From the NCBI GenBank assembly GCA_905480195.1, contig CAJQPN010000048.1, positions 1-64,000 of the forward strand: a stretch of DNA of 64,000 nt, given 5' to 3'. Positions 20,455 through 29,140 of the stretch are shown in pieces (position 1 is the first letter of the stretch; each line of letters begins with the position of its first letter). This DNA is from an uncultured Acidimicrobiales bacterium (lineage in GTDB: Bacteria > Actinomycetota > Acidimicrobiia > Acidimicrobiales > Aldehydirespiratoraceae). A program made the position numbers and the translations under genes. The notes below the pieces were generated by a model. It had not been told where the DNA came from, did no database searches, and saw only the letters and a program-made list of their open reading frames with translations.

Positions 20455-21537
20455 CGGGTAAATGATCGGCCGCTCCTCGATCTCTCGCAAGCCGCGCCCT
20501 CCTACGCCCCCGCTCCAGTCGTCGTCGATCGCATCGCCCAGGCGGCAGCAGAGGCCGACACGTCGAAGTATGCACCGCAGCCGGGTATCCCCCAGCTTCG
20601 CGCCGCATTCGCCGCCGACGTGGCTGCCGCGTACGACGCCGACGTCGACCCCGACGACACCCTCATCACCGCGGGCTGCAATCAGGCGTTCTGCACGGTG
20701 ATGAGCGCACTGGCAGGACCGGGCGACAACGTCGTGCTCGCCCTCCCCTTCTACTTCAATCACGACATGTGGTTGCGGGTTGAGGGCATCGAGCCCCGAT
20801 ACCTGGAGCCGGATAATCAACTCCACCCGTCGGTGACCGAGGCACACCAACGAATCGACGCAAGAACCCGAGCAATCGTATTGGTCACACCGGGCAACCC
20901 GAGTGGCGTGACGTACCCACCAGAACTCATCGATGCGTTCGCTGACATGGCAGCAGACCGTGGCGTTGCCCTCGTCATCGATGAGACCTACCGGTCGTTT
21001 CGTCCGACAACCGATCCGGCCCATCGGCTGTACGACCGTCCACGCTGGCGCGATCAGGTCATCACGCTTCATTCATTCTCGAAGGATCTCGCGATCCCCG
21101 GATACCGCGTGGGGGGGCTCATCGCCGGTGAAGCTGCCCGAGTCGAGGCGTTGAAGATCCTCGACTGCATCGCGATATCAGCACCGGTGATCGGCCAGAT
21201 GGCGTCGGCTACTGGCTTGACCAAGGCGACCGAGTGGCGACGAGAACAAGCCGAACGCACCCGCGACCTTCAGGGGCAGTTCGAGCGCGTGATGGCCGAG
21301 CGCCCGGGCGGCTTTGAGCTGGTCACCGCTGGAGCGTACTTCGGCTGGGTTCGTTCTCCGGGCGACGAGCCGACCCCCGATGTGGTCCGGCGACTCGTGG
21401 TCGAACATGACGTGCTCACGATTCCTGGCACCGCCTTCACCCCGACCGACGAACAGATGATTCGCTTCAGCTTTGCGAACCTCGTGCCCAATGAGATCGC
21501 CGAGCTCGGTCTGCGCTTGACACAATGGTGCCGATGA
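20383..21537 (+). CDS. Class I/II pyridoxal-phosphate aminotransferase
   Basis: MQFSPRVSELIHSPIG...LDLSQAAPSYAPAP, TAGCNQAF, LVTPGNPSGVTYPPEL, HSFSKDLAIPGYRVG. Confidence 0.92.
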   Translation: MQFSPRVSELIHSPIGAAHALLAHRVNDRPLLDLSQAAPSYAPAPVVVDRIAQAAAEADTSKYAPQPGIPQLRAAFAADVAAAYDADVDPDDTLITAGCNQAFCTVMSALAGPGDNVVLALPFYFNHDMWLRVEGIEPRYLEPDNQLHPSVTEAHQRIDARTRAIVLVTPGNPSGVTYPPELIDAFADMAADRGVALVIDETYRSFRPTTDPAHRLYDRPRWRDQVITLHSFSKDLAIPGYRVGGLIAGEAARVEALKILDCIAISAPVIGQMASATGLTKATEWRREQAERTRDLQGQFERVMAERPGGFELVTAGAYFGWVRSPGDEPTPDVVRRLVVEHDVLTIPGTAFTPTDEQMIRFSFANLVPNEIAELGLRLTQWCR

Positions 21538-22355
21538 ACAACCTCTGCACCGTCCGAATCGGATCCATCACCCGCGCCGGACGGGTTGAAGGCGACGACA
21601 TCGTCGTTCTCGATGCAGCCGACGTCGGAGCGGTGCTTCGGACCGGCAAGCAGGAAGAGACCGGTAACGCCATCCCCCGCGTCACAGCCGACCTGGCGCC
21701 CCTCATCACCGCACCCGACAAGGTCATCTGCGTCGGTCAAAACTACCTCGACCACATTCGCGAGATGGGCAACGAACCGCCAGCCGCTCCGACCTACTTC
21801 GCGAAGTTCTCGAACTCGCTCATCGGTGCCCGTGACGACATGATTCTTCCGCCGGTCGACGTGTCGACCCACGTCGACTGGGAAGCCGAGCTTGCGATCG
21901 TCATCGGGAGTCCGGTTCGGCACGCATCGTCTGCCGAAGCCTTGGCCGCGGTGGCGGGCTACACCGTGTTGAACGACGGTTCGGTGCGTGACTACCAACG
22001 CCGAACGAAGCAGTTCCTCGCCGGCAAGATGTTTGAGGGTCTCACGCCGGTCGGACCGGTGCTGGTCCCGGCGACCGAGCTCGGAGATGGCAGTGGCCTG
22101 ACGATCCGGTCGAGCGTCGACGGAGTAGTCAAACAGGACAGCAACACCGACCAGCTGTGTTTCACCGTCGTCGACATCGTGAAAGACCTCTCTGCGATCA
22201 CCACGCTCATGCCGGGCGACATCATCGCAACCGGGACGCCGGGAGGTGTCGGTGCGGCGCGAACCCCGCCTGAATGGCTCGGCGATGGTTCGATCGTTCG
22301 CTGCGAAATCGAAGGTATCGGCGCAGTCGAGAACCGCTGCGTGCTCCCGGGTTGA
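21525..22355 (+). CDS. Fumarylacetoacetate hydrolase family protein
   Basis: KVICVGQNYLDHIREMGNEPPAAPTYFAKFSNSLIG, WEAELAIVIG, PGDIIATGTPGGVG. Confidence 0.93.
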   Translation: MVPMNNLCTVRIGSITRAGRVEGDDIVVLDAADVGAVLRTGKQEETGNAIPRVTADLAPLITAPDKVICVGQNYLDHIREMGNEPPAAPTYFAKFSNSLIGARDDMILPPVDVSTHVDWEAELAIVIGSPVRHASSAEALAAVAGYTVLNDGSVRDYQRRTKQFLAGKMFEGLTPVGPVLVPATELGDGSGLTIRSSVDGVVKQDSNTDQLCFTVVDIVKDLSAITTLMPGDIIATGTPGGVGAARTPPEWLGDGSIVRCEIEGIGAVENRCVLPG

Positions 22356-22356
22356 G

Positions 22357-22908
22357 TCAGACGGCGAGCCGAGCGGTGATGTCGGTGACGATCTCGTCGA
22401 CAGTTCGATCGTCGGTCGGTACCGGTTCGAACTGGCCGTAGACCTCGGCTCGATCAGCCAAGAGTTCAGCGATCCGACCCTCGGGGTTGGCACCAGCCAG
22501 GAGTGGCCGCTCGTCGACCCCGTCGACGAGCACCCGATCCATGATCGTGTGCGGCTCGGCAGTGAGGCAGAAAATACGACCGGTCGCTGCGAGCACGACT
22601 CGAGTTTCGGCCCGGGTGAGCATTCCGCCACCCGTTGCGATCACGAGGTCGGTGCGGACAGCAAGTTCCGCGGCCACGGTTTGCTCAAGATTGCGGAATC
22701 CGTCCTCGCCGGCGATGGCGAAGATCTCCGGGATCGGCCCGTGGACAGCGATGATGGCCTCGTCGGTATCGACGAATTCACGCCCGAGCGCGGCGGCAAG
22801 CGCTCGCCCGACTGCGGTCTTTCCAGTGCCCATGAAACCCGTGAGCACGAGGTTCGGCGCACCGTCGGCGCCGCGCGCCCCCTTTGTCTCTGCGCGTCGA
22901 CGGCCCAT
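22357..22908 (-). CDS. aroK: Shikimate kinase family protein
   Basis: NLVLTGFMGTGKTAVGRALAAALGREFVDTDEAI...FRNLEQTV...LVIATGGGML. Confidence 0.85.
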   Translation of the reverse strand: MGRRRAETKGARGADGAPNLVLTGFMGTGKTAVGRALAAALGREFVDTDEAIIAVHGPIPEIFAIAGEDGFRNLEQTVAAELAVRTDLVIATGGGMLTRAETRVVLAATGRIFCLTAEPHTIMDRVLVDGVDERPLLAGANPEGRIAELLADRAEVYGQFEPVPTDDRTVDEIVTDITARLAV

Positions 22909-22949
22909 GGCTTCCGACGGTACACCGCCACAGGAGCGTCACGAGCGGG

Positions 22950-23600
22950 GTTCGGGTACAGCAAATAGCGCCGTCGGGCCACGTCGAATACTGCGAGCTC
23001 GTCCTGCCAACCCGCAATGATGTCGGCTGAGGCGACCCCGGCTGCCAGTTCGTCGACGAGACGGGTCGTACCGGCGAGCAGTGTCATCATCGACGTTCGG
23101 GGGACGTACTCGTCGTCACTGCTTTGTTGTCGGCGAGCCTCATGCCAGAACGCATCGAGAATGTGGACACCCACCTCGGCCGGATCGAAGCTCGCACGGT
23201 CGGTGACGACCGTGTCGGCGTCGGCCCACGGGGCCCCGACCTGTTCGAATGTCGATCGGGTTCCACCCCCGAACGAAATGGAGGTGGCTTCGAGGATCAC
23301 CGTGCCCAGATAGAGGACGGCTGCCGTGAGGGTCTGGAGTCCCGGAGGAGGTGGGATCCACTCGAGCCCGGTTTCATCCCAGGTCATACCTCGTTCCCAG
23401 CCCCCGAGGGGGATGACATCGAGCCGAAGATCATCGACCCCATCGCTCCAATCCTCACCGACGATTGCCTTCGCCAGTTCACCAGGCGTCATCGCCTAGG
23501 CCGCCGCGATCGGGAACTGGCCGACGAACGACACGCGCTCGGGAGCAAATGCGGCGACCAACTCGACGTCGGGGGCCTCGGGTCATGACCGAGTTGTAGG
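22950..23600 (-). pseudogene. Degraded DUF1343 (exo-N-acetylmuramidase NamZ-like) remnant
   Basis: SFVGQFPIAAA*AMTPGELAKAIV..RLDVIPLGGWERGMTWDETGLEWIPPPPGLQTLTAAVLYLGTVILEATSISFGGGTRSTFEQVGAPW...YLLYP matches the DUF1343 C-terminal pattern, with an in-frame TAG (23496-23498), apparent internal deletions, missing N-terminal domain and lost stop. Confidence 0.75.
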
Positions 23601-23656
23601 ACTGCTCGGTCGGCGACGATCTGCGCCATCATGGAGTCGATGCCACGGAGGACGAG

Positions 23657-24634
23657 ATGACCGCACATGCCATTCGCATGACCACTACCGGAGGACCAGA
23701 GGTCCTTGCGTACGAAGAGATCGACGTTCCCGACCCGGGACCTGGACAGGCGACCGTGGCGGTGCATGCGAGTGGCGTGAACTTCATCGATACGTATCAC
23801 CGCTCAGGCCTCTACGACGTGCCGCTTCCGTTCACACCGGGGTCGGAGGGGGCCGGAGTCGTCACTGCGGTCGGCGCCGATGTCGAAGCGGTGGCAGCCG
23901 GCGACCGGGTCGCCTGGGTTGGGGTGCCGGCTAGCTATGCGTCGCACGTCGTCGCCGACGCAAGCGTGTTGATGCGGGTTCCCGACGACATCACGCTCGA
24001 GACTGCGGCGGCGATTCCGCTGCAGGCGATGACTGCTCACTACCTCATCACCGACACCTACTCCCTTGCCCCCGGCGACACCTGCCTCGTCCACGCCGCC
24101 GCCGGTGGCACGGGCCGGCTGATCGTCCAGATGGCACGGTTACGCGGCGCCCGAGTCGTCGCAACCGCCGGTTCCGACGAGAAGCTCGCGATCGCACGTT
24201 CGGGCGGCGCCGACCACGCGATCAACTACCGAACGACCGACATTGTCGAAGGTGTTGAAGCCGCAGTGGGCAAGGACGCCATCGATGTCGTCTACGACGG
24301 TGTCGGGGCGGCGACGTTCGAAGCCGGACTCGCGGTCCTGCGGCCTCGTGGTGTCATGGCCACGTTCGGCAACGCGTCCGGAGCCGTTCCACCGGTCAGT
24401 CCACTCTCGCTCATGCCGAAGTCGCTGTTCCTCACCCGACCTAGCCTGTTCAGTCACATGCTCACCGCCGCCGAGCGACTTGGTCGCTGGAACGAGATCA
24501 TCAGCTGGGTGCAGACCGGAGAACTCGAGATCCGTATCGGCCACACATGGCGGCTCGCCGAGGCCGCTGCGGCGCACACTGCGCTCGAATCGCGTGCGAC
24601 AACCGGCAAACTGCTGCTCACTGCGGGAAACTGA
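23657..24634 (+). CDS. Quinone oxidoreductase (zinc-independent MDR/ADH family)
   Basis: PDPGPGQATVAVHASGVNFIDTYHRSGLYDVPLPFTPGSEGAGVV...HAAAGGTGRLIVQMARLRGARVVATAGSDEK. Confidence 0.93.
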   Translation: MTAHAIRMTTTGGPEVLAYEEIDVPDPGPGQATVAVHASGVNFIDTYHRSGLYDVPLPFTPGSEGAGVVTAVGADVEAVAAGDRVAWVGVPASYASHVVADASVLMRVPDDITLETAAAIPLQAMTAHYLITDTYSLAPGDTCLVHAAAGGTGRLIVQMARLRGARVVATAGSDEKLAIARSGGADHAINYRTTDIVEGVEAAVGKDAIDVVYDGVGAATFEAGLAVLRPRGVMATFGNASGAVPPVSPLSLMPKSLFLTRPSLFSHMLTAAERLGRWNEIISWVQTGELEIRIGHTWRLAEAAAAHTALESRATTGKLLLTAGN

Positions 24635-24638
24635 GAAC

Positions 24639-25598
24639 GTGACGGCTCTTCTTGATGCATTCGAAGCTCTCGTAACTCGACAAGTAGCTGCGCTGGCTGC
24701 GCCGGGAGTCTGGTTCACCGGAGAGGAACAGGTCGCAATCGCCCGTGAGGCCCGCGGCGCCCGGGCCGGCCAGCCTCCTGCCGGTGAGCTACCGGCGGCT
24801 GTCGCCGACGCAAGCCGCCGTATCGCAACCGAAGCCTGGACGATTCGGCCCGCCGACATCGCAGCATGGGTCAACGCCGGTCTCCGTGCAGAGGCCTACG
24901 TCGAGATCCTGTCGATCGTCGCTCGCTTGGCTGCGCTCGACACGGCGGCATTCGGGCTCGGACTCGACGATCCCGTCCTGCCGGAACCGATCGCAGGTCT
25001 GCCCAGCCAGGTGGTGATCACCGACGCGGCGATCAACCAGGGATGGGTACCCACCGTGGGCGTTGCCCACCCGGTCACCGCTCTCACCGCGATCCCAGGC
25101 GGCCTTGAGCTGCAGTTCGACGTCCACGAAACGCTCTACCTGTCGATCGATGAAATGAGCGACCCGGTCGCTACACGCAACGGCGCCACTCGCGCCCAGA
25201 TCGAGTTGGCTGCCGCCCGAACGTCGTATCTCAACGAGTGTTTCTTTTGACTGCTGTCTCATGCGGGGATGCTCCGTGCGAGCCTCCATGAGACAGGCCA
25301 AGAACTCCACCCGCGCGTGATCGCAGAAGGGTGCGGTACCTGCGGGGTACCCGCCGGGAACGACATCCGCGCCCTCGTCGATGCCTGCGTAATGCGGGAC
25401 TTTGACGAGTACCCCGATGCGCGGGTTCGCGCCGAGCTCCGGCTCGGCCGCGATACAGCCGATCGCATTGTCATGGTGGCCGCCAACTTCGAGATGATGA
25501 ACCGATTACTCGATGCCGTCGGCGTGCCGGTAAGTGCAACCACGACCGGACTCGCCACCGAAATGGGGCTCGTCATCCCTGATCATCTGCAGCCGTGA
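24639..25598 (+). CDS. Candidate AhpD/CMD-like selenoprotein with UGA (Sec) at 25248-25250
   Basis: ORFs 24639..25250 and 25269..25598 share a frame and are separated by one TGA. Context ..AQIELAAARTSYLNECFF(U)LLSHAGMLR.. reproduces AhpD catalytic spacing E-x11-C-x2-C/U-x3-H. Hairpin follows TGA. Confidence 0.75.
25254..25296 (+). promoter_or_regulatory. Candidate bacterial SECIS hairpin
   Basis: CTGTCTCATG (25254-25263) pairs perfectly with CATGAGACAG (25287-25296); inner GGGG/CCTC and CTC/GAG helices with AUG bulge; apical loop CGUGC starting 25 nt after UGA. Confidence 0.7.
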
Positions 25599-26020
25599 CC
25601 GTGACCCTGCAGTATCTCCTCGACCGACTCGCCATCTCCGACTTCCTCACGACCTATGCCAACGCCGTCGACACCAGGGACTGGGCGCTCTACCGAACCC
25701 TCTTCACCGCAGACGCGCACATCGACTACACCGCAGCTGGCGGGATCGAGGGCACGGTCGACGAGGTCGTCTCGTGGCTCGAAACCACGATGGAGATGTT
25801 TTCGGCCACCCAGCACCTCGTGAGCAACGAAATGGTCACGATCGACGGCGACACGGCAACCGTGCGGGCGATGTTCTTCAACCCGATGCACTTCGCTGGC
25901 AAAGACGCTCCCTTCTTCGAGTGCGGGGGTTGGTACAACCACGAGCTCGTTCGCCACGGCGACGGCTGGCGGAGCGTTCGTCTCTGGGAGGACTTCTCCT
26001 GGACCACGATGGGGAAGTGA
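25595..26020 (+). CDS. SnoaL-like/nuclear transport factor 2 family protein
   Basis: LLDRLAISDFLTTYANAVDTRDWALYRTLFTADAHIDYTAAGG...; 140 aa. Confidence 0.85.
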   Translation: MTVTLQYLLDRLAISDFLTTYANAVDTRDWALYRTLFTADAHIDYTAAGGIEGTVDEVVSWLETTMEMFSATQHLVSNEMVTIDGDTATVRAMFFNPMHFAGKDAPFFECGGWYNHELVRHGDGWRSVRLWEDFSWTTMGK

Positions 26021-26021
26021 C

Positions 26022-27599
26022 ATGGCGCCACCCTGGACCACGATCCCAGACCTGATCGACGATGCGGCCGACCGCTTCGCATCGAACGAGGCCATGGTCG
26101 ACGGCGACATCCGTTGGGACTTCGTCGAGTTTCGCACCGAGATCCGACGAGCGGCCGCCGCACTGATGGCGAGCGGCGTCGAACGCGGCGACCGCATCGC
26201 GGTGTGGGCGCCGAACTGCTGGGAGTGGGCGGTCGCCGCCCTCGGCGTCCATGTCGCAGGCGCGATCGTCGTCCCCATCAACACGCGTTTCAAAGGCCGC
26301 GAGGCGGCCTACGTGATCGAGTCGAGCAAGGCTCGCATCCTCTTCACCGTCACGGACTTCCTCGACACCGACTACGTCGCACTCCTGAGCGAGGCTGGCG
26401 TGCCTGCTTCACTCGACGAGATCGTGGTCCTGCGGGGCACCGTTCCCGACGCTGCGGTCGCGTTCGCCGACATGATCGACCGAGGCAGAGGCATCTCCGA
26501 CGACACGATCGCCGAGCGCGCTGCGATGATCGCACCCCACGATTTGTGCAACATCATGTTCACCTCGGGCACCACCGGTTCTCCCAAGGGAGCGATGCTC
26601 ACCCACGGGGCCACCTGTCGGGCGTTCAAGTCGTGGTCTGACGTGATCGGTCTCGACCAGGACCGATACCTGATCGTCAACCCGTTTTTTCATTCGTTCG
26701 GCCTGAACGCCGGCATCCTCGCCTGCCTCATGACCGGATCGACGATCGTCCCACACCCGGTGTTCGACGTCGCTCAGGTGATGCAACGGGTTCCCGAGGA
26801 ACGGATCTCGATGCTGCCTGGCCCGCCCGCGATCTACCAGACGATCCTCAACGACCCTGACCTCGAATCATTCGACATGTCATCACTTCGACTCGCAGTC
26901 ACGGGCGCAGCCGCGATTCCGGTCGAGATGATTCTGCAGATGCGCGAACGACTCGGTTTCGAGAAGATCGTGACCGGCTACGGGCTCACCGAATCGACCG
27001 GCATCGCCACCATGTGTCGACACGACGATGACCCCGAAATCATCGCTAACACCTCAGGTCGGGCGATCCCCGACGTCGAGGTGCGGGTGATCGATGCCAA
27101 CGGCAAGGAGGTACCCCGGGGCGAGCCGGGCGAGATCGTGGTACGGGGCTACAACATCATGCTCGGCTACCTCGATGACCCCGAGAAAACCGCCGAGACA
27201 GTCGATGCCGAGGGCTGGCTTCACACCGGTGACATTGGCGTGATGGACGATGGCGGCAACATCGACATCACCGACCGGGTGAAGGACATGTTCATCAACG
27301 GTGGATTCAATGCGTACCCCGCGGAGATCGAGAACGTGATGACGAAGCACCCCGATATCGCCTCGGTCGCCGTGGTAGGCGTGCCCGACGAACGCCTCGG
27401 CGAGGTCGGCTACGCCTTCGTGATCCCGGTCAGGGGTTCGGCTCCCAGTGGCGACGAGATCATGACGTGGTGTCGCACCGAAATGGCCAACTACAAGTGC
27501 CCCCGCCACGTCGCCTTCGTCGACGCGTTGCCGCTCAACGCCAGTGGCAAGGTCCTCAAATACGAACTGCGCGACCAAGCGATTGCATCACTCGGCTGA
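26022..27599 (+). CDS. Acyl-CoA synthetase, AMP-dependent ligase (FadD3-like)
   Basis: MFTSGTTGSPKGAMLTH, GYGLTESTG, GWLHTGDIGVMDDGGNIDITDRVKDMFINGGFNAYPAEIE, NASGKVLKYELR. Confidence 0.93.
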   Translation: MAPPWTTIPDLIDDAADRFASNEAMVDGDIRWDFVEFRTEIRRAAAALMASGVERGDRIAVWAPNCWEWAVAALGVHVAGAIVVPINTRFKGREAAYVIESSKARILFTVTDFLDTDYVALLSEAGVPASLDEIVVLRGTVPDAAVAFADMIDRGRGISDDTIAERAAMIAPHDLCNIMFTSGTTGSPKGAMLTHGATCRAFKSWSDVIGLDQDRYLIVNPFFHSFGLNAGILACLMTGSTIVPHPVFDVAQVMQRVPEERISMLPGPPAIYQTILNDPDLESFDMSSLRLAVTGAAAIPVEMILQMRERLGFEKIVTGYGLTESTGIATMCRHDDDPEIIANTSGRAIPDVEVRVIDANGKEVPRGEPGEIVVRGYNIMLGYLDDPEKTAETVDAEGWLHTGDIGVMDDGGNIDITDRVKDMFINGGFNAYPAEIENVMTKHPDIASVAVVGVPDERLGEVGYAFVIPVRGSAPSGDEIMTWCRTEMANYKCPRHVAFVDALPLNASGKVLKYELRDQAIASLG

Positions 27600-27706
27600 A
27601 ATCCGCAGGTTCTTTACAAAGGAGCAATCCGGTCGCGGGTCTCCAGCGGCGGTAGTTTGGAAGCCGTTCTGATCAAGACGCCAACGGCGCGGACGACGAG
27701 AGAGCC

Positions 27707-29140
27707 ATGACCGATTCCGGCACTGACCACTTCGAACGCTGGCAGGAGGACGAAGCGACCGCCGAGGCGATGATCCCGATCCTGGGGCGCCTCTACCGCG
27801 AGAAAGACGTCATCTTCTACATCTACGGGCGCAAGCTCGAGCGCACGCCGATCGGGATCATCAAGGCGCACCGGTACGCCCGGAACTTCACCGGGTCAGA
27901 ACTTTCGGTCCAACAGACCCTTCCCGTGCTCGAAGCGTTAGCCGATATGGACCTCGACTCGGCGAAGATCAACCTCGGCAAACTCACCAACGGCTGGCTC
28001 GACGCCGGCGAGGTCGACCTCCGGGCTTACCTCGACCGCGAACTTGCGTCGATCACCACCGGACACGGGCAACTGCTCGAAGAACCCACCGACGTTGTGC
28101 TTTACGGCTTCGGCCGCATCGGCCGCCTGCTGGCCCGCATCCTGATCGAGCGAGCCGGGTCGGGCGCCAAACTGCGACTCCGGGCGATCGTGCTGCGACC
28201 ACAGAAGGCGAACGACATCGAAAAGCGGGCCAGCCTGCTGCGCCGCGACTCGATCCACGGACCGTTCGCTGGCAGCGTCATCGCCGACCCCGACAACGAC
28301 CAGATCATCGCCAACGGCAACCCGATCAGGTTCATCTACGCCGCACAGCCTGAAGACATCGACTACGAGTCCTATGGCATCAAGAACGCAATTGTCATTG
28401 ACAACACGGGGGCCTGGCGCGACGCGGAGGGCCTCAACCGTCACCTAAAGGCCAACGGTGCAGCACGTGCCGTGCTCACTGCGCCGGGGAAGGGCGCGGT
28501 CAAGAACATCATCTACGGCGTCAACCACGACGTGCTCACCGACGACGACGTGGTCCTCTCGGCAGCGTCGTGCACCACGAACGCGATCGTGCCGCCACTC
28601 AAGGTGATGAACGACACGTTCGGCATCGTCGGTGGCCACGTCGAGACAATCCACGCCTACACGAACGACCAGAACCTCACCGACAACTTCCACAGCAAGG
28701 AACGCCGGGGCCGGTCGGCGCCGCTCAACATGGTGATCACCGAAACCGGTGCCGCGTCGGCGGTCGTGAAGGCACTTCCCGAACTAGCCGGCAAACTCAC
28801 CGGTAACGCGATCCGGGTTCCGGTCCCGAACGTCTCGCTCGCAATCCTCAATCTGACACTCGAGCGTGAAGCGAGTCGTGAAGAGATCAATGCCGAACTG
28901 CGCGACGCGTCGATGAGCGTCGATCTGGGCGAGCAGATCGACTACACCACCTCGACCGAAGTTGTGTCGTCGGATCTTGTCGGCGCCGAACGCACCAGCA
29001 TCGTCGACGCCCAGGCAACGATTGCCGACTCGAACCGCTGCGTGCTCTACATCTGGTACGACAACGAGGCCGGGTACAGCTACCAGGTCGTCCGCCTTGT
29101 CCAGGAGATTGCCGGACTGGCGTATCCACGCGTCCCATAG
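27707..29140 (+). CDS. gap: Glyceraldehyde-3-phosphate dehydrogenase, long form
   Basis: VVLYGFGRIGRLLARILIERAG, VLSAASCTTNAIVPPLKVMNDTFGIVGGHVETIHAYTNDQNLTDN; about 125-aa N-terminal extension. Confidence 0.93.
   Translation: MTDSGTDHFERWQEDEATAEAMIPILGRLYREKDVIFYIYGRKLERTPIGIIKAHRYARNFTGSELSVQQTLPVLEALADMDLDSAKINLGKLTNGWLDAGEVDLRAYLDRELASITTGHGQLLEEPTDVVLYGFGRIGRLLARILIERAGSGAKLRLRAIVLRPQKANDIEKRASLLRRDSIHGPFAGSVIADPDNDQIIANGNPIRFIYAAQPEDIDYESYGIKNAIVIDNTGAWRDAEGLNRHLKANGAARAVLTAPGKGAVKNIIYGVNHDVLTDDDVVLSAASCTTNAIVPPLKVMNDTFGIVGGHVETIHAYTNDQNLTDNFHSKERRGRSAPLNMVITETGAASAVVKALPELAGKLTGNAIRVPVPNVSLAILNLTLEREASREEINAELRDASMSVDLGEQIDYTTSTEVVSSDLVGAERTSIVDAQATIADSNRCVLYIWYDNEAGYSYQVVRLVQEIAGLAYPRVP

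Follow-up and report, generated by a model that had tools for sequence, protein, structure and literature searches.

Within a window of 64,000 nucleotides from an uncultured Acidimicrobiales bacterium, an open frame is interrupted by an in-frame UGA, and a hairpin with a perfect 10-bp stem begins three nucleotides further on. This raises the question of whether the UGA is read as selenocysteine and, if it is, which part of the hairpin serves as the SECIS. The feature is almost certainly a standard bacterial SECIS in the transcript of an AhpD-like selenoprotein gene, bound by SelB so that UGA is read as Sec, with the long lower stem as a local addition. The coordinates of the gene and of the parts of the hairpin are collected in Table 1.

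Table 1. Features of the selenoprotein gene and its hairpin (positions in the window; + numbers count from the UGA).
Feature	Position	Strand	Remarks
NF041238 alkylhydroperoxidase-related selenoprotein gene	24639..25598 (about)	+	Predicted GTG start; TGA stop 25596-25598
In-frame UGA, predicted to be read as selenocysteine, C-x-x-U-x-x-x-H	25248..25250	+	Aligns with the invariant second Cys of CxxC
Lower stem, 5' arm, lineage-specific	25254..25263	+	10/10 pairs in the window gene, 9/10 in L052, <=6/10 elsewhere
Lower stem, 3' arm, lineage-specific	25287..25296	+	From pairing in homologs
SECIS core, GCUC / CGUGC loop / GAGC	25271..25283	+	Conserved pairs, invariant loop G, frozen third codon positions
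Loop G (+26) and U (+27)	25276..25277	+	G invariant; in all 69 homologs +27 is U or G
Possible core-helix extension	25268..25286	+	+18/+36, +19/+35; U20.C34 mismatch in the window gene

Gene family and active site

Read through the UGA at 25248-25250, the frame encodes a protein (...RTSYLNECFF-U-LLSHAGMLRAS...) that matches the NCBIfam model NF041238, "alkylhydroperoxidase-related (seleno)protein", with 201.7 bits (E 1.9e-59), above the curated cut-off of 175. E189, C201, C/U204 and H208 are among the invariant residues in an alignment of 20 members, so that in every one the CxxU/C position is occupied by Sec or Cys and the active-site E and H are present. The spacing of these four residues is that of the AhpD active site. 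A profile search retrieved AhpD/CMD and peroxidase-related PDB structures, the best being 6k40 (E 1.3e-13). The AlphaFold model of the protein is confident (mean pLDDT 90), and Foldseek returned no match below E 0.001, its best hit (E 0.011) being weak and AhpD-like. This analysis thus establishes the gene family and the location of the UGA at the catalytic position, and from its sequence the product is predicted to be a C-x-x-U enzyme of NF041238 with peroxidase-like activity.

Among 395 genomes of the class, 74 contain a match to NF041238 above the cut-off, which in almost every case has a single in-frame TGA. A phylum-wide sample at E <= 1e-35 yielded four genomes only, every one of the same class, and BLAST against E. 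coli genomes gave no match. Numerous lower-scoring matches, about 190 aa long and each carrying a single in-frame TGA at the CMD core, were also seen (genus g88, whose genomes measure about 1 Mb, is an example); they suggest that class members with small genomes possess a second family of AhpD-like selenoproteins, shorter than the first.

For comparison we used 69 UGA homologs from the same class, the window gene included, and one Cys homolog, L064. All 69 UGA sequences have the TGA at the identical position and align without gaps, with a constant distance from UGA to loop; they share ancestry, and counts of conservation or covariation among them are not counts of independent events.

The hairpin and its conserved core

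Ten Watson-Crick pairs, starting at +4, join CTGTCTCATG (25254-25263) to CATGAGACAG (25287-25296). Between the arms lie GGGG (25265-25268), CTC (25272-25274), the loop CGTGC (25275-25279) and GAG (25280-25282), with the loop G of 25276 at +26; an earlier note on this DNA had located the UGA, both stem arms, the inner segments and the loop G correctly. Folding of 25245-25300, which that note had proposed as a check, gives -24.6 kcal/mol in RNAfold (z = -3.25), and none of 200 dinucleotide shuffles is as stable. With the peptide held fixed, 23 of 5000 random synonymous recodings fold as well as the real hairpin.

The top of the minimum-energy fold consists of UGC/GCG pairing with the loop UCCGU, which lacks a G in the place expected for a bacterial SECIS. 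The CTC/GAG helix with loop CGUGC, which the earlier note had drawn as the top, is 1.5 kcal/mol less stable than this optimum and has a base-pair probability of about 0.1; it is thus not favored by the computed fold, but it is the form that emerges from the homologs. RNAalifold on the 69 sequences finds a single helix, the 4-bp GCUC/GAGC (25271-25274, +21 to +24, with 25280-25283, +30 to +33) closed by a 5-nt loop. Its pair cells are formed in 98.6% of cases across the 69 sequences, and it is present in the minimum-energy fold of 39 of the 69 homologs. An Rfam scan of the window returned no match.

Because the element lies within coding sequence, codon choice provides a test of RNA-level selection. 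Leu is encoded by CTC in 69/69 homologs (43% elsewhere in the same genes), Ser by AGC or AGT in 68/68 (27% elsewhere in the same genes), and the third base of the Arg codon is T or G only in 48/48 (background 47%), while codon +10 ends in G without exception. At codons 7-11 the third-position entropy lies between 0 and 0.6 bits, and from codon 13 onward it ranges from 1.3 to 1.9 bits. The base at +26 is G in 69/69, that at +27 is T in 59 and G in 10, and +30 is always G. No compensatory pairs were found within the core among the 69 sequences; the core hardly varies, so that covariation is almost absent and the evidence for it is conservation at the codon level. When the helix is extended by three pairs, some covariation appears at +19/+35 (C-G 16, A-U 9, others). 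Judged from these alignments, the core is conserved at the RNA level.

The Cys homologs bear on the same point. Five of the six that are informative (L064, L094, L095, L096 and L097) have Cys instead of Sec and are without the core. The sixth, L093, from an Acidimicrobiia MAG (family match 236.9 bits), has Cys encoded by TGC and keeps the exact CTC-CGGGC-GAGC (L093:1016-1051), which we interpret as a recent switch from Sec to Cys that has left a fossil SECIS behind. The other matches in the Cys-homolog search (E above about 1e-9) belong to more distant CMD proteins that do not have Leu/Ser at the core positions, and core absence there therefore says little.

The pattern UGA-N21-CTCNGKNNGAGC occurs at three sites in the 2.78-Mb genome: the study gene, a paralog and one out-of-frame site. 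The paralog (L048, G000:C3:105225-106199) is a divergent second UGA-containing NF041238 gene with the same core, GCTCCGTGCGAGC. The third site (L180) lies outside any open frame and was rejected as chance.

The 10-bp lower stem

The earlier note had treated the perfect lower stem as the key feature and as a sign of constraint beyond the protein. If so, the 10-bp stem would be the functional, selected SECIS stem and the core would be secondary, a reading that we consider unlikely. The stem is indeed rare under a synonymous-codon null, with all ten pairs in the same register in 50 of 200,000 draws (the register having been picked after the stem was seen), and the energy of the window gene with the core fixed has z = -4.5. 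Between the window gene and its nearest relative, L052, there are zero substitutions at codons 7-19 after the UGA and 2 changes at codons 1-16 (P about 0.004).

The homologs argue against this reading. All ten pairs form in the window gene and nine of ten in L052, where U9-A41 has become C.A with no compensation, whereas none of the remaining 67 UGA homologs forms more than six of ten, and the same-genus UGA orthologs L050 and L051 form only one of ten. Lower-stem cells are paired in 34% of cases across the family, no better than in shuffles or slid registers. Covariation supporting the 10-bp stem was sought across the homologs and not found, and a search of the homologs for a lower stem in other registers gave a weak mean z of -0.68 (core fixed) and no common register. 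The earlier note had itself named a lack of compensatory change in close homologs, or absence of the stem from UGA-containing orthologs, as what would speak against it, and both were observed: of the 68 UGA homologs other than the window gene, 67 lack the stem, and the closest shows no compensation. Of its claim of constraint, what survives is that the stem is unlikely to have arisen by chance synonymous choice; conservation in the family does not. Its emphasis likewise needs shifting from the long stem to the conserved element, the short inner helix with its loop, which that note also described.

Its rarity under synonymous codon choice makes it probable that the stem arose recently in this lineage, as an extension of a standard SECIS. 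That it is a selected extension, recently evolved in one branch of one genus and tuning the efficiency of Sec insertion, is a more tentative proposal, which we rate as possible and somewhat doubtful. As a local addition on its own branch the stem may stabilize the hairpin, and it is dispensable across the family.

Decoding of the UGA and comparison with known systems

The same genome encodes all the components by which a Sec-decoding organism is recognized: a tRNA-Sec with anticodon TCA, selB (281 bits), selA (375 bits, adjoining selB on contig C60) and selD (368 bits, with its own in-frame TGA). Among genomes at least 90% complete that carry the UGA gene, 44 of 45 have selA by hand count, compared with 172 of 267 in the whole set (hypergeometric P 8e-9). 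The selD gene is itself a selenoprotein gene (GAGW-TGA-GCK, L046:1531-1590), and about 27 nt past its UGA lies the hairpin GGCGCA-GGUCG-UGCGCC.

We consider it extremely improbable that the UGA is a true stop followed by a separate gene or a decayed remnant. The downstream ORF does have its own ATG (25269) and can be called as a 109-aa ORF, but the UGA occupies one catalytic position in 69 homologs, the NF041238 match spans it, and the conserved LLSH directly past U lies upstream of that ATG. Moreover, a comparison of the window gene with L052 downstream of the UGA shows 40 codons changed synonymously and 10 nonsynonymously, and third positions account for 45 of the 56 changes, a pattern indicating that this frame is under strong purifying selection. 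The frame ends at TGA 25596-25598, overlapping by 4 nt the GTG start (25595) of the next, SnoaL-like gene, and the order FAH hydrolase, quinone oxidoreductase-like, AhpD-related selenoprotein, SnoaL-like, AMP-binding ligase and GAPDH-like (window 21525-29140) is shared with three more genomes of the genus. General recoding of UGA as another residue such as Trp, for which the open frame is the sole point, has a negligible probability, given that TGA ends genes here (the neighbor at 23657-24634 and the study gene at 25596), that homologs have Cys at the UGA site, and that the Sec machinery is complete.

The SECIS reading of the earlier note is therefore upheld by a known selenoprotein family, a UGA at the catalytic Cys, the full Sec machinery and a core invariant in 69 UGA homologs. 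We infer SelB binding and Sec insertion at UGA 25248. SelB with Sec-tRNA-Sec would bind the mini-helix 21-33 nt past the UGA (GCUC/GAGC, loop NGKNN), and the complex would deliver selenocysteine at UGA 25248; translation would therefore run on for 115 more codons before terminating at 25596, the true stop. What looks like a split gene is thus a single selenoprotein gene that routine annotation would cut short at the UGA. Synonymous sites that are frozen with UGA and released with Cys tell the functional part of the SECIS apart from a striking, dispensable stem, and the 69 UGA homologs, the few Cys homologs and the one core-keeping Cys homolog form a data set for Sec/Cys exchange, the principle of which is known already.

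A 2005 Sargasso Sea study described "hypothetical protein 1" as a CxxU selenoprotein with a predicted SECIS (PMC1088965), and a 2026 review lists NF041238 AhpD_rel_CFYUT as "AhpD-related protein (hypothetical protein 1, Sargasso Sea metagenome)", CxxU (PMC13188914). The window gene resembles AhpD_rel_CFYUT in its match over the cut-off, Sec at CxxU and the SECIS-type hairpin after the UGA, and differs in nothing essential, although its lower stem is unusually long; judged from named relatives, it comes from within or close to the class Acidimicrobiia. Compared with the AhpD and peroxidase-related structures 6k40, 2pfx, 3c1l and 1gu9, which are relatives at the profile level and share the spacing of E, C, C(U) and H, the window protein is longer, with an extra N-terminal helical part, and has Sec for the second Cys.

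The hairpin also agrees with the consensus model of the bacterial SECIS, whose classical case is E. coli fdhF (PMC13188914, Fig 2A). In the model, an upper stem of 4-16 bp carries an apical loop of 3-9 nt, here the 4-bp GCUC/GAGC with 5 nt; G occupies the first or second loop position, and the base after it is usually G or U, as in CGUGC; the UGA and the apical loop are 16-37 nt apart, here 24 nt, the same in 69/69 homologs; and the energy is -7.5 kcal/mol or lower, here -24.6 kcal/mol, or -9.2 kcal/mol for the core and three flanking pairs alone. The hairpin differs from the consensus in its nearly fixed 4-bp core sequence and in the 10-bp lower stem, which lies outside the model. The window gene is a further member of a catalogued selenoprotein family, and its SECIS is of the ordinary bacterial type.
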